Positions 18,152 to 58,400 of a stretch of DNA of 64,000 nt are shown here, in pieces (positions within the stretch are counted from its first letter, which is position 1; each line of letters begins with the position of its first letter). The stretch comes from Tubulanus polymorphus (Eukaryota; Nemertea; Palaeonemertea; Tubulaniformes; Tubulanidae): contig NC_134034.1 of the NCBI RefSeq assembly GCF_964204645.1, positions 2,574,072 to 2,638,071 on the forward strand, given 5' to 3'. Made by a program: the position numbers and the translations under genes. Below the pieces are notes generated by a model that searched no databases, had not been told where the DNA came from, and saw nothing but the letters and a program-made list of their open reading frames with translations.

Positions 18152-18432
18152 CCCTTTCCGTGCTGACTAATTAATACCCTATAGTGCTTGAGAAAATGTG
18201 AAAATTTGGGAAAATTCCACCCTAGTGTGTTGAATTACGGGAATACCACTATAGTGCGTCTACACCGCGGTGCAGTGTATCATTAGTTACTAATATTTCA
18301 CTATGTTTGACAGGTGCTGCCATCTTTCAAGAGAGAGAATTACTAATTACATCAATACACCACATTGCAGTGTACAAGCAAAATCCATCACCGATTTATA
18401 CACCGCACTGCGGTGTAGACGTACTGAAAGGG
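18152..18432 (+). mobile_element. Full-length piggyBac-like MITE flanked by TTAA
   Basis: TTAA (18148-18151), then CCCTTTCCGTGCTGAC at the left end and GTACTGAAAGGG at the right end, then TTAA (18433-18436). TTAA target duplication and CCC/GGG termini are typical of piggyBac elements. At 281 bp with no ORF it is non-autonomous. Internal landmarks are ATTAATACCCTATAGTGCT, CACTATGTTTGACAGGTGCT, GCCATCTTTCAA and two or three 19-bp palindromes of the type TACACCGCACTGCGGTGTA. Other copies: 5040, 34795 (reverse), 38920 (reverse, decayed), 41356, 41639 (partial), 49905; satellite form at 1-420. Confidence 0.85.
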
Positions 18433-18436
18433 TTAA

Positions 18437-18995
18437 GCAAAACACGTATCACTTCTGGGCAGCAGACATGTCCTAGTACACGTGATTAGTGCGTAGGTTA
18501 TTCAGTGATGATGAGCGGTTACAATGTTTATCGTGAACGCAATTCACTAAACCAGTACTTCTTTTTCCGCACCAAAAGTGCTGTGAAAAGCGCTTACTTT
18601 TTTGCTTGAAAGCCGAACTGCTACAAACCGTGCGATCGGTATGAATGTATTGAAATTGTCCCAATATTTGGGACAAAATTCTAGGTTTGTAACTGATAAA
18701 CCGTTTTATCTGAGGTCGTTATAATAAGGTTCGGCCGTATCAAAACAATCCCAGTAATAAACCGTGCTCGACCCATGATATATATTATTCAATGTCCCGG
18801 CCTGAGTGCTTGGCGCAATTGTAACAGCCACTTCGATTGGTTGATTTTAAAGGTTTTTCAATGAACTGACCAATGAAAACTGATGACACTTTAAAGCGCA
18901 CTGTTTACAACTGAGTGGGTATCAATCCGCAGCCTGGAGTAATCATCCGACATACTCCGAGCTGGAAACCACCACTAACGGATATTCAGTATTGT
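18437..18995. other. Non-coding interval, no recognisable feature
   Basis: Unique-looking AT-rich sequence between a MITE and the 109-bp repeat. Short ORFs are present but have no recognisable motif, splice pattern or codon bias. Confidence 0.5.
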
Positions 18996-20499: not shown

Positions 20500-20636
20500 A
20501 TCTCTTTGTTACCAAATGTAGATATGGTTGGTCTTTTTGTTTTAGCGGTTGAAGCCGATGGTTCTAAAGGGAATTAATTACAAATTGGAAAATGGAGGCT
20601 TCGGGATCATCGAGTTCCCGCGCAGCACGCCTAGGC

Positions 20637-22208
20637 TTGGTGTAATCTGCTTCGCTTCAGGAAAATCACTACTTATCACTTCTACAAACTTGACTTCACC
20701 TGTGACATTTCTAATTGAAAATGAACTACAAAAATGAAAATGTACTGACACTGATTCAGAGTGGTCCCGATGCTGAATAGAGGATGTGGGTGTCCCGGAT
20801 TCGAACCCAGTTATTACTGATACTGGTTCAGAGTGGCCCCGATGCTGAATAGAGGATACAGGGGTGTCGGGTTCAAACCCAGTAATTACTGATACTGATT
20901 CAGAGTGGTCCTGATGCTGAATAGAGGATGTACAGGGTGTCCGACGAGGAGGGATATCAAGATTTTTTAACGTTATCGCCATCTATTGGAATTTGGCTGA
21001 ACTGACTAGATAGCTCTTAGTTGTCTCACTAACTCTTCTTTAATCCGTTAAAATCACACTCGCCATCTGGTGGATATAACCATTATTAGACTGTGGTAGC
21101 ATAGAAATCCACCAGATGGCGAGTGTGATTTCAACCCATTGAAGAAGAGTCAGTGAGACAAATAAGAGCTATCTAGTGAGTTCATCCAAAATCCAATAGA
21201 TGGCGATCATAGTATCATTATTCTATGTACCAAAAGTTTTGGTTCGAGTGTAATAAACTATCTTATCTTATCTTATCTTAAACTAAGCGGATGTCCCGGG
21301 TTCGATCCTTGTACAATCTATGTGTTAATAGCTTCTGGGGTCCGAATCCCTAAGAGTCCACCCTTTAATTCACGCTGAGGGTACTGGTACCCTATATCCC
21401 GACTCGGAGTCAGTACTCAATACGGCGTTGTGCCCCAGCCATCCTCATTCCTGTAGCAGCCTTGTATTCATTATCCTTGTGTACCAGATATCTCGGGTCC
21501 AGTTCCACAGTTCCGAGTTTAGATTTAACTCTGAGTTAAATCATCGAAAATGAACTAACTTTAAAACTCTAACTCACAACTGTGTAACTGGGCCCTGAGT
21601 AGTTGCATTAGCACGTGTGAAGTTATTAGTCTGAACTGGCCGAACACACAGCACATAAACAATAAACCAATTGACAAAAACTATTTCAAAATGCATAATT
21701 TTTTTATTTCATAAAACATTCGCGTTTCATAGAAATATAAAATTCATCTATTCTCTCTTTTTTTCAATTTCTTTTTCGTGTTTAGCACCAATTATTAAAA
21801 AAACTTTATCCCGTAGCGTTATCTAAAAAGAAATGCTTTAATCCATACAGCGCGGGATTTCGTTGTAACGAACAGATCCCCGCTGGCCTGTTCTCATGAA
21901 AAAGGTTCGACTCTTAATCCGGATTTTATGGGTTTTTAAAAGTCTTGGGAAGTTATTAAAACTGGCAGCAGAAATAATAAACAAGGTATCCATTTTCTTT
22001 AGTTATGACTTTGCAAATGGAAGACAAAAATACAACAAATACAACAAACACAACAAACACCATTCCGTGTGAATTATTGTCATAAAACTAAATACAAAAT
22101 ACTGATTAGTGATGGCTTGACTCAATGCAATATATATAAGGGCCTTTCCCTCGGCATATGTTCAAACCTGATGACATCTTGAGACTCTGTCACAGTAGAC
22201 ACATCCTT
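20637..22208. repeat. Tandem segmental duplication, unit 1 (~1.57 kb)
   Basis: Starts TTGGTGTAATCTGCTTCGCT and ends before the same TTGG at 22209. The following unit is nearly identical over its whole length. It contains ~84-bp repeats with GGGTTCAAACCCAG B-box-like cores (20745-20945), a 233-bp foldback (20975-21207), a (TTATC)n run near 21255 and a foldback with GGTCCAGTTCCACAGTTCCG/AACTGTGTAACTGGGCCC ends (21499-21595). No ORF with recognisable domains. Confidence 0.9.
20975..21207. mobile_element. Foldback element with ATCGCCATCTATTGGA ends
   Basis: Inverted arms of roughly 100 bp begin ATCGCCATCTATTGGAATTT and end AAATCCAATAGATGGCGAT. The loop is around ATAACCATTATTAGACTGTG. It is non-coding. 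An almost identical copy lies in duplication unit 2 near 22605-22840, duplicated along with the segment rather than by transposition. Confidence 0.8.
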
Positions 22209-23834
22209 TTGGTGTAATCTGCTTCGCTTCAGGAAAATCACTACTTATCACTTCTACAAACTTGACTTCACCTGTGACATTTCTAATTGAAAATGAACTA
22301 CAAAAATGAAAATGTACTGACACTGATTCAGAGTGGTCCCGATGCTGAATAGAGGATGTTTAGGGGTGTCTCGGGTTCAAACCAAGTAATTACTGATACT
22401 CTCGATGCTAAATAGAGGATGTGGGTGTCCCGGATTCGAACCCAGTTATTACTGATACTGGTTCAGAGTGGCCCCGATGCTGAATAGAGGATACAGGGGT
22501 GTCGGGTTCAAACCCAGTAATTACTGATACTGATTCAGAGTGGTCCTGATGCTGAATAGAGGATGTACAGGGTGTCCGACGAGGAGGGATATCAAGATTT
22601 TTTAACGTTATCGCCATCTATTGGAATTTGGCTGAACTGACTAGATAGCTCTTAGTTGTCTCACTAACTCTTCTTTAATCCGTTAAAATCACACTCGCCA
22701 TCTGGTGGATATAACCATTATTAGACTGTGGTAGCATAGAAATCCACCAGATGGCGAGTGTGATTTCAACCCATTGAAGAAGAGTCAGTGAGACAAATAA
22801 GAGCTATCTAGTGAGTTCATCCAAAATCCAATAGATGGCGATCATAGTATCATTATTCTATGTACCAAAAGTTTTGGTTCGAGTGTAATAAACTATCTTA
22901 TCTTATCTTATCTTAAACTAAGCGGATGTCCCGGGTTCGATCCTTGTACAATCTATGTGTTAATAGCTTCTGGGGTCCGAACCCCTAAGAGTCCACCCTT
23001 TAATTCACGCTGAGGGTACTGGTACCCTATATCCCGACTCGGAGTCAGTACTCAATACGGCGTTGTACCCCCAGCCATCCTCATTCCTATAGCCATTATC
23101 CTTGTGTACCAGATATCTCGGGTCCAGTTCCACAGTTCCGAGTTTAGATTTAACTCTGAGTTAAATCATCGAAAATGAACTAACTTTAAAACTCTAACTC
23201 ACAACTGTGTAACTGGGCCCTGAGTAGTTGCATTAGCACGTGTGAAGTTATTAGTCTGAACTGGCCGAACACACAGCACATAAACAATAAACCAATTGAC
23301 AAAAACTATTTCAAAATGCATAATTTTTTTATTTCATAAAACATTCGCGTTTCATAGAAATATAAAATTCATCTATTCTCTCTTTTTTTCAATTTCTTTT
23401 TCGTGTTTAGCACCAATTATAAAACATACTTTATCCCGTAGCGTTATTTAAAAAGAAATGCTTTAATCCGTACAGCGCGGGATTTCGTTGTAACGAACAG
23501 ATCCCCGCAGGCCTGTTCTCATGAAAAGCGTTCGACTTTTAATCAGGATTTTTATGGGTTTTTAAAAGTCTTGGGAAGTTATTAAATCTGGCAGCAGAAA
23601 TAATAAACAAGGTATCCATTTTCTTTAGTTATGACTTTGCAAATGGAAGACAAAAATACAACAAATACAACAAACACAACAAACACCATTCCGTGTGAAT
23701 TATTGTCATAAAACTAAATACAAAATACTGATTAGTGATGGCTTGACTCAATGCAATATATATAAGGGCCTTTCCCTCGGCATATGTTTAAACCTGATGA
23801 CATCTTGAGACTCTGTCACAGTAGACACATCCTT
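22209..23834. repeat. Tandem segmental duplication, unit 2 (~1.63 kb)
   Basis: Copy of 20637-22208 at an offset of 1572 bp at its start and 1628 bp at its end. The ~56-bp excess comes from an extra partial 84-bp repeat near 22360-22420. It closes with TTGG at 23835-23838, the 4-bp sequence present at each junction. TTTATT at 23328-23333 (AATAAA on the minus strand) is a candidate poly(A) signal for the converging GALNT11 gene, whose stop is at 24174. Confidence 0.9.
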
Positions 23835-40185: not shown

Positions 40186-40224
40186 ATGTTGTCTATTCTG
40201 CTGATAATGCCACGAGTAAAATGA
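40186..40224 (+). promoter_or_regulatory. uORF whose stop overlaps the AF10 start codon
   Basis: ATG at 40186 (and in frame at 40207) reads 12 codons to TGA at 40222-40224, overlapping the AF10 ATG at 40221 as ATGA. A second tiny uORF is ATG GTT GGT GTT GTT TGA at 40167-40184. It may limit initiation if the transcript starts upstream of 40167. Confidence 0.45.
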
Positions 40225-43200
40225 AGGAAATGGTTGGTGGCTGTTGCGTATGTTCAGATGAGAGAGGTTGGACTGAAAACCCGTTAGTTTATTGTGATGG
40301 CCAGGGCTGTAACGTGGCCGTACATCAAGGTAATGTACCCTCTCCCGACCTCTACCCCCCTCCACCAGCAATCAAGCATCACCATCTCCTGATGAGAGAC
40401 CATCATTAGTCCAGTAGGGAGTCCCCCTTCCTCCAGTCCATTTAGTTTCTTTCTAAATTCTATTGGATGTAATCACCACGGTTTTTAGCACCCTCCCCCG
40501 GCAGGGATTCGAACCTGGCATCGAGATTGTCACCAGTAGTCACCAGTACAAAACCCTACATGCGAAACTCTTCTTCGGCCGCTTCTATCAGATTTACAGA
40601 TTATGATTCTATTCAGGAATAGATAGAGACCAATCAATAAGGACTCTGAATTACAAACTGTCGGTAAAAGTGCAGATCCGCACCTCTCCGCGTAAACGGT
40701 TCAATCAATTACTTAAATATCATTGTTTAGGATTCAAAATGTCATCAGCAATTCAGTACATTGTCAATGGCTAATTTTAAGATATCTTCACTAGAGAGAG
40801 TATAGAGATTTTAGCCTGGATTCTGTCATTCAGCAGATTGCGTCAATCACGAGAGGTGCGGATCTGCACTTTTACCCAAACTGTCTACCGGCCGCTTCTA
40901 TCAGGTTTACAGATTATGATTCTTTTCCGGAATAGATTGAGACCAATCAAAAGGACTCTCTGGATTACAAACTGTCTTATCGGCCGCTTCTATCAGGTTT
41001 ACAGGTTATGATTCTATTCCAGAATAGGTTTTGCGGTCGAAATTACTTGATATGATATTTATTTTCAGCTTGTTATGGTATCGTGCAAGTCCCCACCGGC
41101 CCGTGGTTTTGTCGTAAATGTGAATCGCAAGAGCGAGCCGCCCGGGTGGTAAGTCAAAATTTGGCCATTTCTCGTAGATCTAGTCCATCTTGGCTGATTT
41201 AGATTGTGAGAAGCATCTGGTTTGATTCGACCATGTTTTAAAGGTGAAACTAAAAGAGCAATTTGAAAGTCGTCAGTGTTCGGTCACAGTTTGTATCAAT
41301 GTGAATATTCTTCAGAACGAGTTCATCGTAGATGATTAAAATCAGTCGCGTTTAACCCTTTCAGTGCTGACTGATTAATACCCTAAAGTGCTCGGGATTA
41401 TTTGAAAATTTTGAAAAACTCCACCCTAGTGTGTTGAATAACGCGAATACCACTATAGTGTCTACACTGCGGTGCGGTGTATCGTTAGTTACTAATATTT
41501 CACTATGTTTGACAGGTGCTGCCATCTTTCAATAGAGATAAAAACTAACTACATCAATACACTGCAGTGCAGTGTACTAGCAAAATCCATCAGCGATTCA
41601 TACACCACACTGCGGTGTAGACGCACTGATAGGGTTAACCCTTTCAGTGCGGACTAATTAATACCCGAAAGTAATCTCAAGAGTTTAGAAGCCAAATCAT
41701 CTTTTTCCCTCGTCGTAAACGGCTTCGAAAATGTCAAAACAACATTTCCATCTGCTGAATTTCATTTCAATCCTTGTATTCTTCTATTTTGCGTTGATTT
41801 TGCAGAAATGTGAACTTTGTCCGTCGAAAGATGGCGCTTTGAAGCGAACAGACAACGGAGGTAAGAAAAATCCGAGAAACCTTTCAGTTTTTTGGCTACG
41901 TGGGAAGAATGTACTGAAAAATCAGGCCACTGTCCTTAAAAGAAGAAAATTGTACCCTGAGTATAATCCGGCCAAGCTCCGCATGAAAAAACCTCAAACT
42001 GCAGATGTATTCTTAAAAAGCTACGAATAAGGGAAGAAAGATTGTTTACATGAACCAAAAAGAAATTCCGAGTTATGATTTGAAGGAAATTTTAGTATTT
42101 AGATTTATCTGATGATCCTACTACTAATTTGATATCTGATGTTGAAATGGGAAGTCTAAGCGCTCCCTGATCATCCCTATGATTCATTGATTATTTAAAA
42201 GATTCTTAAGAGAAAATGCCTGAAACTGCTTGAAAGTCCTTTAATTTGAGCTAAACGCCCAAAACTCCTTCAATTTTGAGTGATAGGCAAGTAGTAGATA
42301 CTCCAGGGGCCAGTTGCACAGTCGTGACTTAAGTCCAAAAGTGGTCTTAAATCTTAAGACTGGTCTTAAGTTGTTAGAATGGCTATAGAACAAAGTTGGT
42401 CTTAGAATGGTCTTAAGCCTAAGCCCAGTCTATGGAACCGGTCCCAGAAGTTGTACATTAGGCTCCTATGCCTAAATCGGTACAATTGCGACAGTAAGTG
42501 TTTAATAGTGAAGGGGATAAAAATTTGCTTACGAAACCACTGAATTAACAGTTTTACCGAGACGGTACCAATTTAGGAGGAGTCTACGGTAATTTGAGGT
42601 ATGAAAGTGTGAAGCAGACGCTTCCTCAAAATTTGAAATTTTCTCCTCGATAAGTCAATGATTGATCAGTAGGTAGGGACCCTGAATCAGCAGAACCGAG
42701 ACGAAAAAATCAAACCCCGCTTTCATGATCGAAACGCTAAAACGAATCGGATGATTTTCTATTTTCATGTTTTGTCACCGCGTACGCCGTTGTCTAGGTT
42801 GGGCTCACGTTATATGCGCCCTCTATATTCCGGAAGTGCGGTTCGGTAACGTGGCGACGATGGAACCGATCATCGTACATTCAATTCCACACGATCGGTT
42901 CTATAAGGTACACACAGGTGGCGCCGGCGTGCGGTGTTACGGTGCTCGCTGTGTCAATGTATTGTAATATTATTGTATTTATTTATTGCTGTTAGACGGG
43001 GGTGAATCTGTCCGGTGGCGGGGATTGGTTGCGCGACAAATTTTACTTTCTAAGCAAAGGGCTATTTTGCTGTCTTATGACTAGAGGCAACAGTTTGGGT
43101 TAAAAAAATGGGAGCAGTATTTTGCTGTCAAGGCAGGGGTGGATTTGCTGTCTAAAAGAGGGGCTGGTTTTGCTGTCTGAATAGTAGACAGTGATGCTGG

Positions 43201-46200
43201 AGGACATAGTGCTTTACTGCCTAGCAGGGGTTGGTTTTGCTGTCTAAAAGAGGGGCTGGGTTAATTGCTGTCTAAAAGAGGGGCTGGTTTAATTTTCTGT
43301 CTAAAAGAGGGGCTGGTTTTGCTGTCTGAATAGTAGACAGTGATGCTCTAGGACATGGCGCTTTACTGCTTAGCAGGGGATAGTTTTGCTGTCTAAAAGA
43401 CAGGTGGTTTTGCTGTCTAGTAGAGGCTGTCTTGAAATGGCACAGTACAGTGTTGTCTATCTGGGAGATGGTCTCACTTTCTGGAGACTGTGACGATTCA
43501 GCTGTCTAAGGGGATCATGTTTTACTGTCAAGGAGGGGCAGAATCCTGGCCGTGTTTTGTGAAACTGCTATTATTTTCATGGAATGTTTCGTATTAATTT
43601 AGTTTCGATGTTGTTTTGTTTTTTTATTTTCTATCTCTGTGTCTCTGTCTCACGGTGTGTTGTGTTTGTGGATGATGTGCGCGGTACGTACAGGTGGTTG
43701 GTGTCACGTGGTTTGCGCTCTATTTATACCGGAGGCGTGGTTCGGTAACGTGCAGACGATGGAGCCGGTCATCTTACACCAAATACCACCCGACCGTTTC
43801 AACAAGGTTGGTACCCTCCCCCCTCACTGAACCACCCCAAATTTAATATTTTGCGACAAAGATTAATTCTTTTCCGATATTTCTTTACCCTATTGTCAAA
43901 TTAAACCCTGAACTGTCGAACCGGGTCCCCTGCACTCCTTTCGTACTTGTTTTTGCACATTTATATCTATCCTATGTTAGTACGTACGCCCAGATACTAG
44001 GCTCAGGATTCGGCATCCAACTGTACCCTTAGAATTCTAAAGTTTTAGTTTTTCTTGATGTTCTGAATGTTTTGGATTAGGTTTCTTTTTCAAATCGTTT
44101 AAGTTAGTTCTTTTTCTTGTAAACAAAAAAAATTGGCTAAATTTGGAATTAATTGTAAATATTTAGAACAAAAAAGGTTGTTTGAAAATTAAATGCCAAA
44201 TTGAAATCGATTTTCACGATAAAATCAGCTTAATCCGGATTATTCGGATAAAAATTCCAGGATTCGATACAAATCAATTGTTACCGGATTAAACCGATTC
44301 CTATTTTAAGCGGGTTTTACCACGCCGCGTTTAAATTCTTTAACGAAAACGTTCGTTCGAATTTGATTTCCAGGCGTGCTATATCTGCGAGGAACAGGGT
44401 CGAGAGGGTAAGGCTTGCAGCGGCGCGTGTATGCAGTGCAATCGAAACGGATGCAAACAACATTTCCACGTTACATGGTAAGCGTTCGACCCGCCAGGGA
44501 TGGGGGGTCAGATTGGTGAGAGGAGAATTTTGAAAAATAGATCCGTCTGCTCGAGGGGGGAATTATTGTGAAAAAAGTGAATAATCGGAAAAGTGTGTGA
44601 AAATTTCATGAAAAGTGTCCGTCAAATAATTTTGATCCCTATTTTATACCATACACCGTGGAGCTCGGAATTTATGAACAAACTGCGTTTAAAGTTCGAG
44701 CAATTAGATTTGAATCTGTCCAGATCGTGATAGATAGTTATGGAATAGTATGCGAACAAAAATTATGTTAGTTCTAAAATGTTTTGTTTCAGTGCTCAAG
44801 CGAAAGGTTTATTGTGCGAGGAAGCAGGCAGTTATAACGATAACGTCAAGTACTGCGGATACTGTGCTTATCATTATAAAAAACTGGTAAGTACCGATGC
44901 TTACCACAATCCAACCTTCATAAATTCTCTGGATGTCCTGCAGTTGTTGTCCTACTGCGCGTTAGCGACACCTGGTGGATCTTGACATGCCACAAATGGA
45001 ATCTATAACCGCAGTGGTTGACGTCTTACTGCACTTTAGCGACACCTAGTGGATCCTCTCTTGCCACAGGTGGAATCTTCGAGTCATAGTAGCTGATATC
45101 CTGCTGTATTCTAGTGACACCTGGTGGATCCTCACTTGCCACAGGTGGAATCCTCTATTGCCGCAGTAGTTGATGTCCTACTGCACACTAGCGACACCTG
45201 GTGAATCCTCACTTGACTCAAGTGGAATCCTCTATTGCCGCAGTTATTGATGTCCTACTGCACACTAGCGACACCTGGTGAATCCTCACTCGACACAAGT
45301 GGAATCCTCTATTGCTGCAGTAGTTGATGTCCTACTGCACACTAGCGAAACCTGGTGGATCTTTACTTACCACAAATGGAATCTATAACCGCAGTGGTTG
45401 ACGTCTTACTGCACTTTAGCGACACCTAGTGGATCCTCTCTTGCCACAGGTGGAATCTTCGAGTCATAGTAGCTGATATCCTGCTGTATTCTAGTGACGC
45501 CTGGTGGATCCTCACTTGCCACAGGTGGAATCCTCTATTGCCGCAGTAGTTGATGTCCTACTGCACACTAGCGACACCTGGTGAATCCTCACTTGACTCA
45601 AGTGGAATCCTCTATTGCCGCAGTTATTGATGTCCTACTGCACACTAGCGACACCTGGTGAATCCTCACTCGACACAAGTGTAATCCTCTATTGCTGCAG
45701 TAGTTGATGTCTTACTAGAGACACTTGGTGGATCCTCACTAACCGTAAATGGTATCCTTTATTGCCGCAGTAGCTTTGAACAGTAAAGAAACAGAACACC
45801 CACACTGTAGTGGTGCTCAAGAGAATAAAAATGAAACAATTGATCTTTCATAATAAACATATTGAACAGATGTTTTGATCTGCGTCGTGTATTGAATGCT
45901 CAGTACACGTATCGGTATGTATATATAGTGTGGCTGAAATTTTGCTCATTTCATCAATTTCAGAAAAAAGACAGCCACATCAAAACGATCCCGGCGTTCA
46001 AACCGGTTCCGTCGTCTGCCGGCACGACGCCCGACGGAACGCCCGAGAAAAACAACGGACAAGTGAAACTGTCGTCGAATCCGCGAGTTCACGTGAGTAG
46101 TTCAAATAGAAGCAGCAGACGCTCGGGTCCACAGAATTTGGAATTTTATCCTTCATAACTGCTTAAACCCGGTAATGGCCGATCTGTAGGGATCCCCCGT

Positions 46201-49200: not shown

Positions 49201-52200
49201 AACTTACCCATAATGATAATGATGATAGTTTATTCAGCCTAAAATCCGTATACCGGTATACAATATGCTCATTGGCTTTACATCATATATAAAAAAGACA
49301 AAACCGATGAAAAGGTGATATTTGTTATGGGGTTTGACATTCTTACCTAATGGGTGGACTACTTGTGTTACAAGATTCTTCAGTCCGGAGGGCAAGATAA
49401 TGCAATTATTTTAGTACTGGATTTAACGCACTATCGGTCATAACGAATAGAATTTCTGGATTCTAGGACAACTGCCCCCTGGACAATTTCCCTAGAATCC
49501 TGAAATTCTATTCGTTATGACCGATAGTGCGTTATATCCAGTTTGAAAATAATCGCATTTTCTTGGTCACAATTTTGTATTTCGTTATGTCCGGGATACT
49601 TTTAACGAGGTTACATTGTATTATTGTTTTTAAAGACGGCAACTTTTGTTTCGATTTCCAGCTGATTTACAGAACGGACCGTTGAAAGGGCCTCAATTAC
49701 CGACGCGCACCGCGTATAAACCGCCGGCTAGAACACCGGACAGGTATGTACGCGCGCAAACGTCGCTTAAGTCTATTCGTTTTTGTCTGGAATCTATTTT
49801 TCGGGGGGTTATATCTCTTAATTTTGTGAATGCGAACCTTAATTTGGTCTACGACCAGTGAAACTATGAGAGAAATCCGACCAAGATGTAAAGTTGTTGC
49901 ATAGAAATGTTTAAATTCCATCCTAGTGTGTTGAATAACGGGAATGCTACTGTAGTGCGTCTACACTGCGGTGCGGTGTATCATTAGTTACTAGTATTTC
50001 ACTATGATTCACAGTTGCTGCCATTTTTCAAGAGAGATAATTATTAATTACCAATTACATCAATACACCGCATTGCAGTGTACTAGCAAAATCCATCACT
50101 GATTTATACACCGCACTGCGGTGTAGATGCACTGAAAGGGTTAAAGAATCACGAATGGAGGGAACAATTTTTTTCAGTCTTCCACAAACGATGGAGCAGT
50201 TGTTAGAGAGACAATGGGAACAAGGCTCGCAGTTTCTCATGGATCACGCTCAAGGTCAACACTTCGACAGTAAGCTTCCGTCGTCTGCATCAATCTGCGT
50301 TTTATGCAAATTAATGCAAATCTTTATGCGTATCTAATGAATAAAAATGGCTGTCGTCCATAAATGCCCCCTACGACATCAAATTGCTCCTGGTCTTTTG
50401 ATCTAGAAAATAATGGCTGCCTCTATAATTCCCCTTATGACATCACCAAACAACGTATGTGCTAGTGATTTGATCCAGAGACCGTTCTCTAGAAACGATG
50501 TCTTCCTCCATAAATCCCCCTATGACAGCACCAATTACTTACTTAAGAGAATCTTCCGAAAGAATGGCTGCCTTCATGAATCCCCCTATGACATCACCAG
50601 TTACCTACTAGTGATATAATCTGAAGAGAATTTTCCAGAAATGATGTCTGCCTCCATAATTCCCATCAGACATCATATACTGCTTAGCCTCAATCATTTA
50701 CTAAATAAAATTTTGAATTAGAATTTTTCATCAAATTGCCAAACATTTGAGTTGATCTACAGCCTCTGTAAAAGATGTCTTCCTCCAATGACATCATCAA
50801 ATTGTCTACTAGTGATTCGATCTAGACCCCTCTAAAAGAAATGGCTGCCCCTGTGTTGTCATTAGAATTACTGAACAAACCTTGAGAAAATATGGCTGCC
50901 TCGTGAGTGTCACGTCTTTCTCGTAAATTTCAGTCGCGTCGCTGTTGAACTGTTTACATCAACTACAAGCGGAGAATCATCGTCTGGAGGAGCACATCAC
51001 GTCTCTGGTGGCTCGTCGAGATCACCTGCTGGCGATCAACGCTCGTTTAACGCTACCTCTCGGCGGTCCGTCTGCTGTCAGCACCGCCGCCGCAACTCAT
51101 CAGCAGACGGATAATCGATCGCTTCGTCTGAACAATTTCATACAACCCGAAACGACGACGACGCCGACGGCCGGGTCTTCATCGTCGTCGACTTTACATT
51201 CCGTGAGTTATCGCGCTCGTTACAGCTTTTGACTCCTTGATTCCTAAACAGAAAATGCTTTTACCGGTGCTTGAAACTCCTTTAATTTGAGCCAAATACC
51301 CGAAACTCCTTTTAAACACTTTCAATTTTGAGAAATAGGCAATTAGAAATGGTTGTAGTACTACAGTTAACTACGCCATACAGTTGGAACCGGGATTTTT
51401 CTTTTACCCAATTAGGCGGTTACTGAAATTGAAACTAGTCAAGTTAGTGTATTGGATAAAATGTTTGGTTATGATGTAATAATCTGTAATAATGTTATAT
51501 TATCCCCTAGGTTTTATCACTTCTGATTACTTGATTAGTCTCTGTTCTGGATGACCGGTATATTTCTGTTGCGTTCAAGAAATTTTTCGATTTATTTTTT
51601 TCGTAGAATGAATCGAGCACACTCGCATCTAGTCAAAATTCACCGATGTTAACTCACTCCACATCAGTAAACAGTAGTAATACACAGCCTCAAATACGTC
51701 CCAGTCCCGTCGGTAAGTTAGTGTCCTACTGCACGCTAGCGACACCTAGTGGATCCTCACTTGCCACAAGAGGAATCCTCTATTGCCGCGGTAGTTGATG
51801 TCCTATTGCACGCTAGCGACACCTGGTGAATCCTCACTTGCCACGAGTGGAATCCTCTATTGCTGCGCAGTTGATGTCCTACTGCACGCTAGCGACACCT
51901 GGTGGATCCTTACCTGCCACGAGTGGTATCCTCTATTGCCGCGGTAGTTGATGTCCTACTGCACACTAGTGACATCTGGTGGATCTTCGCTTGCCACAGT
52001 AGCTAATGGAATGAATCCGAGTATTGAGTATTATTGATATTTTCAGTGACTCCTGTTTTTTCAACACCATCAACTGTTACGTCTCGCACGACCACGAACC
52101 ATCTCCATCGACAGCAGCTTACCCTCACCCCTCAGGTATGTCTTACCCTCACGAATATCTCACCCTCCCATACGTCTTACCTTCATATACATCTTACCCT

Positions 52201-55269: not shown

Positions 55270-55443
55270 CTAAGAGTTTTTGACCGCGTCTGTTTTATGA
55301 GTTCCGTCGCAGAACGGTGACTTTTTCGTCTGTTTACACAAACACAACCAGACGGCCTTCGTGTCGTCTGCTATGAACCGGTGAGGTTTAAATCGCGGCG
55401 CCGACGAGTCAGCGATTCGCTTGTGAGATCCATCGCAGAACGG
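55270..55443 (-). CDS. CISD3: CISD3 last exon B (distal)
   Basis: 57 codons plus TAG. It begins PFCDGSHKR, completing the first motif in the canonical CDGSH form, then WLCLCKQTKKSPFCDGTHK for the second. It ends KTDAVKNS. The acceptor is TTTTTCAG. It shares about half its residues with last exon A, so the pair arose by exon duplication. Because each has a stop, choice between them is alternative terminal-exon use. Confidence 0.85.
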   Translation of the reverse strand, partial: PFCDGSHKRIADSSAPRFKPHRFIADDTKAVWLCLCKQTKKSPFCDGTHKTDAVKNS

Positions 55444-58400
55444 CTGAAAAATGAATTCAAAACTATGCATTAAAAAAGGGTCTTTTGGCGATATTTAGAA
55501 TCAGGCCCTATGGTCTCAAATTTCTATTGTGGAATTGTCCAATCCAAGTCTCCACTGTCGAACCTGGTGCATGGGTCTCATCATAAGTTTTTATTGTGGA
55601 AATTGTCAAAGTCTTCACTGTGGAACTAGATGCTTGGTATTTCAAGTCTCCACTGCGGAACTAGGTCCAGGGGTCTCATCTTGAGTTTTAACTGTGGAAT
55701 TCTCAAAGTCTCCACTGTGGAACTAGATGCTTGGTATTTCAAGTCTCAACTGTGGAATTCTGGAAGTTTCCATTGTGTAACATCGGGTCCTTGGTCTTAT
55801 CTTAAATTCTATCCACTGTGGAACTGGGCCTGAACATTGATTGAAAATCGCTAAGGAGCAGAATAAAGGGGGGCATTTCACGAGTTATGACTTCAAACTT
55901 CATTAGTCACAACAACGCGATACATTTAAAACTTTAAAGTTAGCGAGCTGTGAAATGGCCCCCAGCTCCTGGGACCGGTTCTATAGTCATGGCTTCGACC
56001 TAAGACCGGTCTAAGATCGTCTTACTTCCATAGCCAATCAAACAACTTAAGACCCATCTTAAGATTTAAGACCACTTTTGGTCTTTAAGTCCTGGGCCCA
56101 GTTCCATAGTCATGGCTTAGACTTAAGACCAATTTAAGACCATCTTAGTTCTATAACCAATCTAACAACTTAAGACCAGTCTTAAATTTAAGACCATTTT
56201 TGGACTCAAGTCTCAACTGAGGAACCAGCCCCTGACTATTGAATCTCTGCTCCGGGGGCCGGTTCCATAAGTCACGGCTTAGACTTAGTCTTAGACCGAC
56301 TTAGTTCTAAAGTCAATCTAAAAACTTAAGATTAGTCTTAAGAATTAAGACGATTTTCAGACTTAAGTCTCGACTACTGAACTGGCCCCTGATTCCAAAC
56401 AAAGAGAACAAAATTAACTCTGACTACTTTATTTCCAATATCGACGTTATATGTTACATTATCGTATAGCTGACTGTATATCGTCTCGACGGTGCGTGCC
56501 GTCACAAAATGGCCGCTTGTTCGATTGTTTACAATTACACAACCAATAATCCTTCGTTTCGGTCACCGTGAACGCGAACGGGCGTGTCCTCGCGTACATT
56601 TTAATCTGATTGGTTCCTTCGTATAATTTATGCGTCATGTCGCAAAACGGCTGCAACGAGAGAAAAAAGGAAAAAAAATGGCCGACTGTTGATCACCAAC
56701 GATGATACGGCGTTTGAAACGATGATTTATTCCGAGTCGACTTCCGCTTCAGGAGAATCGGAGTCGTCTGTAGATAATAATGACTCTAACAATCGACAGA
56801 ATCAAATTCTGGACCCAGTTCCACTCATCAACCTCTTCCCTCTCTCCTCTCACCCACTTCTCTTCCCTCTTACCAGCCTTTCCCTCTCTCTCTCTCTTCT
56901 CACCCACCTCTCTTCTATTTTCTCTTTACTCTCCGATCTCTCATCAACTTTTTTCCCTCTCCTTTCATTCCTCTTCCCTCTCTCATTCCCTCTTACCAGC
57001 CTCTCTTTCCTCTCACCCACCAACTCACTTCGCTCTCCTCATTACTCTCCTATCCCTCATCAACCTTTCCTTCTCATCGCTCTATGTTCCTCATCCCATC
57101 ACATCAGTGTTTCCTCTCCCTCTATCTCACTAGTCTCTCCCTCTAGTCACTAGTCTTACCTACTCTCTCTACTTTCCCCTCACACCAGTGTTTCCTCTCC
57201 CTCTCTCCTCTAGCTAGTCTTACCTACTCTCTCTACTTTCCCCTCACACCAGTGTTTCCTCTCCCTCTCTCCTCTAGCTAGTCTTACCTACTCTCTCTAC
57301 TTTCCCCTCACACCAGTGTTTCCTCTCCCTCTCTCCTCTAGCTAGTCTTTCCTACTCTCTCTACTTTCCCCTCACACCAGTGTTTCCTCTTCCTCTCTCC
57401 TCTAGCTAGTCTTTCCTACTCTCTCTACTTTCCCCTCACACCAGTGTTTCCTCTCCCTCTCTCCTCTAGCTAGTCTTTCCTACTCTCTCTACTTTCCCCT
57501 CACACCAGTGTTTCCTCTCCCTCTCTCCTCTAGCTAGTCTTACCTACTCTCTCTACTTTCCCCTCACACCAGTGTTTCCTCTCCCTCTCTCCTCTAGCTA
57601 GTCTTACCTTCTCTCTCTACTTTCCCCTCACACCAGTGTTTCCTCTCCCTCTCTCCTGTCACTTGTCTTACCTTCTCTCTCTACTTTCCCCTCACACCAG
57701 TGTTTCCTCTCCCTCTCTCCTCTAGCTAGTCTTACCTACTCTCTCTACTTTCCCCTCACACCAGTGTTTCCTCTCCCTCTCTCCTCTAGCTAGTCTTTCC
57801 TACTCTCTCTACTTTCCCCTCACACCAGTGTTTCCTCTCCCTCTCTCCTCTCACTAGTCTTACCTACTCTCTCTACTTTCCCCTCACACCAGTGTTTCCT
57901 CTCCCTCTCTCCTCTCACTAGTCTTACCTACTCTCTCTACTTTCCCCTCACACCAGTATTTCCTCCCCATCCACTACCTCTTATCCACTCGCACCGGTAT
58001 TTCTAAGCGTTTTTTTTTTAGGCCGACCTCAAACCGAGACCAAACATCTCAAAAAGGAAAAGACATTCACCTGATTTCTACTGTAGCCGCACGAACACCA
58101 CGAATACCGTTTACCGGCGATCAGTTCCACTTTGAACGGTTTCTTATCGTAGATCTTTCCCTTCGGCGGGTCGGGGTTGTAATCGTCGGGGAACTGAGGC
58201 GTTTCTGGATGTTTTGGTTCCTTCTTTTTGAAAATCTCGTCATCGTTGTTGGCGGCGCCGCCGGTCGGAGGGTTCGTATCACTGTTGTATCTGAATGAAT
58301 TCGCCTGCAAAATTAGAAAGTTATTTTCGAAGCGATTTTCACTTTTTTGGCTACAATCCTAACCTATTTCGCTTCAAAACCAAATTACGAGGGCGGATCT

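Follow-up and report, generated by a model that had tools for sequence, protein, structure and literature searches.

The question raised by this locus is whether a gene, apparently of the AF10/AF17 (MLLT10/MLLT6) type, in the nemertean Tubulanus polymorphus can build its PZP module in two versions by choosing between two neighbouring copies of a single exon. AF10/AF17 binds DOT1L and H3. We analysed a stretch of 64,000 nucleotides (nt) of contig NC_134034.1, which is called the window below, and, judging from its sequence, we consider that exons 4a and 4b of this gene probably are a tandem duplicated, mutually exclusively spliced pair, a reading to which we assign a probability of about 0.72. 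The spliceosome would connect exon 3 with one of the two copies and this copy with exon 5, while messages that hold both copies or neither would end early and be removed by nonsense-mediated decay. AF10 would then exist in two forms, distinguished by the second half of the zinc knuckle and by the linker to PHD2.

The first-pass annotation had described the two exons as tandem duplicates, each with phase 1 at its entry and phase 0 at its exit, and its coordinates, AG/GT ends and phases all proved correct; the lengths of both copies (110 and 113 nt) are 2 modulo 3. Its count of 25 identical residues in 36 was reproduced as well (26 of 37 when the split Gly codon is counted), as was the retention in both copies of the His and the Cys that are equivalent to H102 and C105 of AF10 (residue numbers are those of human AF10, 5dag, throughout), which we take to be zinc ligands of the module. 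The assignment of the exons to the PZP module stands and can be made more precise: each encodes the knuckle's second half together with the PHD2 linker, and the remaining part of PHD2 lies in exons 5 and 6. At the DNA level, 85 of 111 aligned bases are identical when one 4b codon is set aside, the local alignment score is 116 compared with a mean of 20 and a 95% point of 28 in 500 approximate shuffles, and blastp between the two open frames gave an E value of 5e-18. This likeness is far beyond chance. The predicted isoforms differ at 11 of 37 residues and by one inserted Gly, whose codon in 4b follows the exon 3 loop and directly precedes the conserved Trp; a one-residue gap at this Gly was present in the five alignments shown of 11 matches (AF10 twice, BRPF1 twice and PHF14 once). 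Identity to human AF10 amounts to 27/37 for 4a and 24/37 for 4b. Three replacements are unique to 4a (104, 125 and 134), whereas 4b departs from human AF10 by the Gly insertion, by six replacements of its own (101, 108, 112, 123, 127 and 130) and at 113 and 118, where 4a, 4b and human AF10 all differ, besides five differences that it has in common with 4a (115, 124, 126, 128 and 133). The intron sequences that flank 4a and 4b do not resemble each other convincingly, whether 150 nt (p 0.04 on the upstream and 0.37 on the downstream side) or 40 nt (0.51 and 0.99) are compared, and the copying is therefore not recent. An assembly artefact in the form of a duplicated haplotype was also considered, and the 23% base difference and the dissimilar introns argue against it.

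The claim that exactly one copy has to be chosen holds at the level of the reading frame. Inclusion of both copies or of neither breaks the frame, and each copy alone yields a continuous open PZP module of 184 residues (4a) or 185 residues (4b). The message that has neither copy reaches a stop at codon 94, and the one that has both loses the PHD2 frame and reaches a stop at codon 222 if exon 7 begins at 45964. Five AG acceptors were tried for exon 7: from 45904 or 45964 the normal frame runs on to 46156; from 45975, the message that holds both copies would regain this frame after a scrambled PHD2. This frame lock is not independent evidence, because it arises automatically when an asymmetric exon is duplicated.

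The assignment of the gene to the AF10/AF17 type is supported by its sequence, since AF10 is the top solved match and the leucine zipper of AF10 has a counterpart in an exon farther downstream. The 4b isoform matched AF-10 (5dag) in the PDB with an E value of 2.4e-104, followed by BRPF1 (3.7e-41), JADE1 (1.7e-37) and PHF14 (1.9e-31), and AF-10 was also the first PDB match for the 4a query, which was made without exon 2; AF17 itself was absent among the solved chains listed. Pfam placed PHD and zf-HC5HC2H_2 on the spliced isoforms, the latter with scores of 104.2 bits for 4a and 97.8 bits for 4b (cut-off 27). In the zipper, phmmer aligned 42 residues with 6jn2 (E 4e-07; query residues 3-44 of window positions 50927-51229). 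The exon before the zipper (50041-50334) had no PDB match at E 0.001, and the string MEQLLERQW, noticed by eye in the window translation, may resemble the octapeptide motif that precedes the zipper. Genome searches covered a 268 Mb assembly of 77 contigs, with the window on contig C10. The 4a protein found 4a, 4b and single matches at four more places (one on C3, one on C2 and two on C5; all six candidates were scored), and the PF13832 profile also scored C3, C2 and a neighbour of one of the C5 places. One AF10 locus was found in the genome, in which masked or missing stretches are possible. The bantam microRNA model had a single match above its cut-off (62.9 compared with 61 bits), from which the animal is probably a protostome, and mitochondrial COX1, read with the standard code, gave no match, although a gene that uses a different code could have escaped this search.

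The divergence of the two copies bears on whether 4b is still used. The NG86 method gave a synonymous divergence (dS) of 0.81 and a nonsynonymous divergence (dN) of 0.18, with a dN/dS of 0.22, and codon maximum likelihood gave an omega of 0.29 and rejected an omega of 1 (2dlnL, twice the log-likelihood difference, 7.18). Together with a Fisher p of 0.0018, this argues that the pair has been under coding constraint. Neutral decay of 4b was simulated at eight rates with 4000 runs per rate, 4a serving as the ancestor and being limited to silent changes; a run was counted if 4b had stayed free of stops with no more than 11 replacements and with 10 or more silent codon changes. The joint probability was at most 0.015 without an outgroup and at most 0.005 when the replacements were limited to 8, the outgroup count. 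It was at most 0.0005 when the observed likeness to human AF10 (outgroup score) was required instead. Because simulated neutral decay reproduces the data so rarely, it is most likely that 4b has been constrained as protein, with a recent loss of its use being possible.

It is conceivable that 4b is a dead or dying duplicate that the spliceosome skips, leaving 4a as the sole exon used. We regard this as unlikely, although a number of observations point that way, some of which also weigh against a mutually exclusive pair. The pyrimidine tract of 4b is weak, with 9 pyrimidines in the 20 positions from -22 to -3, compared with 13 for 4a and 14 for exons 3 and 5, and its atypical donor, GTTGGT, departs from GTAAG, with a U1 duplex energy of -7.9 kcal/mol that is within the range of the five neighbouring donors (-7.9 to -10.5 kcal/mol). 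The copy has collected twice as many unique replacements as 4a and an inserted codon. The pairwise likelihood is compatible with a neutral 4b, the fit being worse by 1.88 with an equal number of parameters. Further points against a mutually exclusive pair are that codon maximum likelihood leaves an omega of 0.5 unrejected (2dlnL 1.46) and that the third-position excess alone is weak (12/26, p 0.12). When the exon frames alone were scored against PF13832, 4b reached 27.7 bits and 4a 36.6 bits (cut-off 27), and neither of these exons appeared when the genome was searched with PF13771, a related family. Dscam-type docking and selector RNA pairing also enforces the use of one exon of a tandem set (see PMC6071210), and the introns give no sign of such control here: pairing among the three introns showed no excess over shuffles (60-nt windows, 12 approximate shuffles per intron pair), the best duplexes having -38.4, -32.3 and -36.3 kcal/mol and the strongest shuffle bests -42.7, -38.3 and -39.3 kcal/mol. 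Moreover, many earlier predictions of human mutually exclusive events are unreal according to a review (PMC9741552; here and below, papers are cited from the accessible portions of their text). Against a dead 4b stands the fact that its frame, AG/GT ends, phases and His and Cys ligands have all stayed intact at a dS of about 0.8, that its sole indel is one whole codon and that the simulated decay mentioned above succeeded so seldom. The Pfam score of the spliced 4b isoform is also close to that of 4a. A recent disuse after long function is possible.

Two further explanations give 4b a role other than that of an alternative to 4a. As a poison exon it would be added after 4a, shift the frame and bring an early stop, so that AF10 would be lowered via nonsense-mediated decay. 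The message with both copies, which has no PHD2 frame and under the exon 7 start at 45964 stops at codon 222, agrees with such a function; however, a poison exon requires no conservation of amino acids, yet 4b keeps AF10-like residues in a frame that is usable only when it replaces 4a, and we find this explanation very improbable. The likelihood is slighter still that 4b belongs to a transcript from a promoter between the copies, encoding a protein without PHD1. The open frame of 4b does reach upstream of the exon (43603-43830) and offers two Met codons just before it, but the zinc knuckle of the product would be missing its first Cys pair, and an acceptor AG with a matching phase would be superfluous.

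The gene model in which the pair of exons 4a and 4b is embedded is given in the table. With exons 1-6 set in this way, GT and AG stand at the intron ends, and the translation of exon 1, MKEMVGGCCVCSDERGW..., was aligned to AF-10 5dag from residue 18.

Table. Exons and other elements of the AF10/AF17-type gene, in window positions.
Feature	Position	Strand	Description
Exon 1	40221..40329	+	Putative start codon; beginning of PHD1, with the residue equivalent to D43
Exon 2	41069..41148	+	Remainder of PHD1; open frame, AG/GT ends, gapless alignment to AF-10
Exon 3	41806..41860	+	First half of the zinc knuckle (CELCPSKDGALKRTDNG); left at phase 1
Exon 4a	42798..42907	+	110 nt; codes for the zinc knuckle's second half, with the His and the Cys, and for the linker to PHD2
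Repeat array	43041..43540	+	Irregular, in the between-copy intron, rich in TGCTGT/YGCY; candidate region of Muscleblind-type splicing control
Exon 4b	43694..43806	+	113 nt; second, diverged version of exon 4, with an additional Gly codon
Exon 5	44374..44477	+	Beginning of PHD2; phase 0 at entry
Exon 6	44793..44886	+	End of PHD2, with the residue equivalent to E179
Exon 7, likely start	45964..46158	+	Predicted from an AG acceptor and an open frame to a stop at 46156; row drawn to the open-frame stop, not to a 3' splice end
Coiled-coil piece	50933..51058	+	Matches the part of AF-10 whose solved structures are 6jn2, 7edp and 6ckn

If 4a and 4b are mutually exclusive, the choice between them probably depends on weak splice sites (the donor of 4a and the pyrimidine tract of 4b) together with trans-acting factors, and not on long-range RNA pairing. 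The 4a donor is the weakest of those compared, with a U1 duplex energy of -5.6 kcal/mol. Several other ways of enforcing the choice were considered and set aside. Exclusion by an intron that is too short is ruled out by the 786 nt of the between-copy intron; as to incompatibility with the minor spliceosome, the intron ends read GT/AG, and no search for U12 signals was made. The AG-free zones, which could have indicated distant branch points, are unremarkable (95 nt for 4a and 89 nt for 4b, compared with 112 nt for exon 3 and 61 nt for exon 5). An inverted repeat at 42042-42067 and 44101-44126 (intron 3 and the intron after 4b, 73% complementary) was dropped as a pairing element because its -28.6 kcal/mol is weaker than all 12 shuffle bests (-29.9 to -38.3 kcal/mol).

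The best candidate regulator would be a protein of the Muscleblind type that acts on the UGCUGU array between the copies. The irregular repeat array makes up much of the between-copy intron, which contains TGCTGT ten times, nine of them inside the array, and YGCY 20 times, compared with no TGCTGT and 3, 5, 10 and 3 occurrences of YGCY in the four other introns tested. In a genome search with 43000-43540, in which very common words were skipped, the array was found at no other place (the one candidate was scored). The scan of eight motifs in five introns comprised 40 tests with 300 approximate shuffles each, the ends of two introns being shifted by one or two bases. The motif TTCT was nominally high behind exon 1 (p 0.013) and behind 4b (p 0.017), as was ACTAA behind exon 2 (p 0.013), and none of these excesses survives the 40 tests. 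Three matches to Muscleblind-like zinc fingers lie within 35 kb on another contig (C9:10957761-10992500), two of them with an internal stop (all seven candidates were scored). Under the known positional rule, Muscleblind would favour 4a and repress 4b; the source of the rule took its motif counts within 250 bases, and the YGCY cluster starts more than 130 nt from 4a. The array may be a candidate Muscleblind switch or, alternatively, a mere minisatellite. It is a rather improbable extension of this idea that a Muscleblind-controlled switch produces two AF10 readers, each binding nucleosomes in its own way, and that splicing would thereby steer the methylation of H3K79 by DOT1L, for example in muscle and nerve compared with other cells.

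The possible effect of the swap can be judged against what is established for AF10. The region H3 20-28 lies in a channel where PHD1, the zinc knuckle and PHD2 meet, and H3K27 is gripped by three backbone carbonyls (PMC10124903). The substitutions D43K and E179K each weaken one H3 site, and the double mutant eliminates H3 binding (PMC8257627). The equivalents of both residues lie outside exon 4, are unchanged and are identical in the two isoforms. Loss of H3 reading through the swap is not indicated. The first-pass annotation had suggested that the substitutions could retune the reading of H3K27 or DNA, and this is unproven, for histone reading because D43 and E179 are outside exon 4. The PZP module of AF10 binds DNA (PMC8257627); an earlier paper on BRPF1 had expected that AF10 perhaps would not (PMC4705663). 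Exon 4 encodes three Lys or Arg residues in 4a compared with two in 4b. It is plausible that the swap would cause a modest shift in stability, in the geometry between the knuckle and PHD2 or in DNA contact.

Other features were observed in and around the gene. A 77-bp tandem repeat of 11 copies occupies 44942-45773 in the intron after exon 6, with a 380-bp period that is 97% alike. The translated stretch TNYIN...SVxAKSI...LRCR occurs at 18294-18473, at 41496-41654 in the intron before exon 3 and at 50041-50160, and probably is a dispersed repeat. The AF10 gene is adjoined by an exon of a CDGSH iron-sulphur protein on the minus strand (55270-55494; Pfam zf-CDGSH, E 1.4e-11). We take CISD3 to be a neighbour of the AF17 gene MLLT6 in human, and the CDGSH exon and the AF10 gene may be an old conserved gene pair. 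Farther away, a segmental direct duplication links 20581-22179 with 22257-23805, its translated pieces being 85-100% identical in the 60 of 712 pairs shown, and at 57147-57918 a short unit is repeated head to tail at about 64 bases from start to start, with the translated pairs listed being 86-100% alike.

As an arrangement, mutually exclusive tandem exons are already known. Tandem duplicated exon substitutions in human, fly and worm resemble the present pair in that homologous neighbouring exons are used one per message and the isoforms are otherwise identical, whereas the gene sets concerned show enrichment for ion transporters and for terms related to the plasma membrane and to muscle (PMC9741552), and the terms MLLT, PHD and chromatin are absent from the main text of that paper. 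In macroH2A1.1 and macroH2A1.2, a mutually exclusive exon alters the ligand pocket, so that ADP-ribose is bound by 1.1 only (PMC7290658). This is similar to the AF10 pair inasmuch as the exon choice changes the binding module of a chromatin protein; unlike it, the case is experimentally established and concerns the macrodomain of a histone variant, not a PHD/zinc-knuckle reader. In DPF3a and DPF3b, alternative splicing alters the PHD part of a chromatin reader, but their C-termini differ through dissimilar exons and not through a homologous swap (PMC9363427). The PZP of AF10 (MLLT10) itself is the same module, the 4b isoform being aligned across the whole solved stretch with D43 and E179 kept. 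The first-pass annotation knew of no description of such a pair in AF10/AF17 homologues, and our search of the open-licence literature, where most matches were available at the level of listings, likewise found no report of tandem exons in AF10/AF17. Skipping of exon 13 (PMC2715136) and exon skipping (PMC13095128) have been described for MLLT10, and no tandem pair is described in the accessible portions of other papers on splicing changes of MLLT10 and one on Mllt6; a further paper mentions MLLT10 solely as a fusion partner. Additionally, MLLT is absent from the main text of PMC5740500, and Alh and CG1070 are absent from that of PMC3303723.

If both exons are used, one gene would provide two versions of the module that brings a cofactor of the H3K79 methyltransferase to chromatin. 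A reader of the histone tail would then join the chromatin proteins whose binding module varies by exon choice, and the pair would constitute a natural experiment on how the residues of the knuckle and the linker tune AF10.

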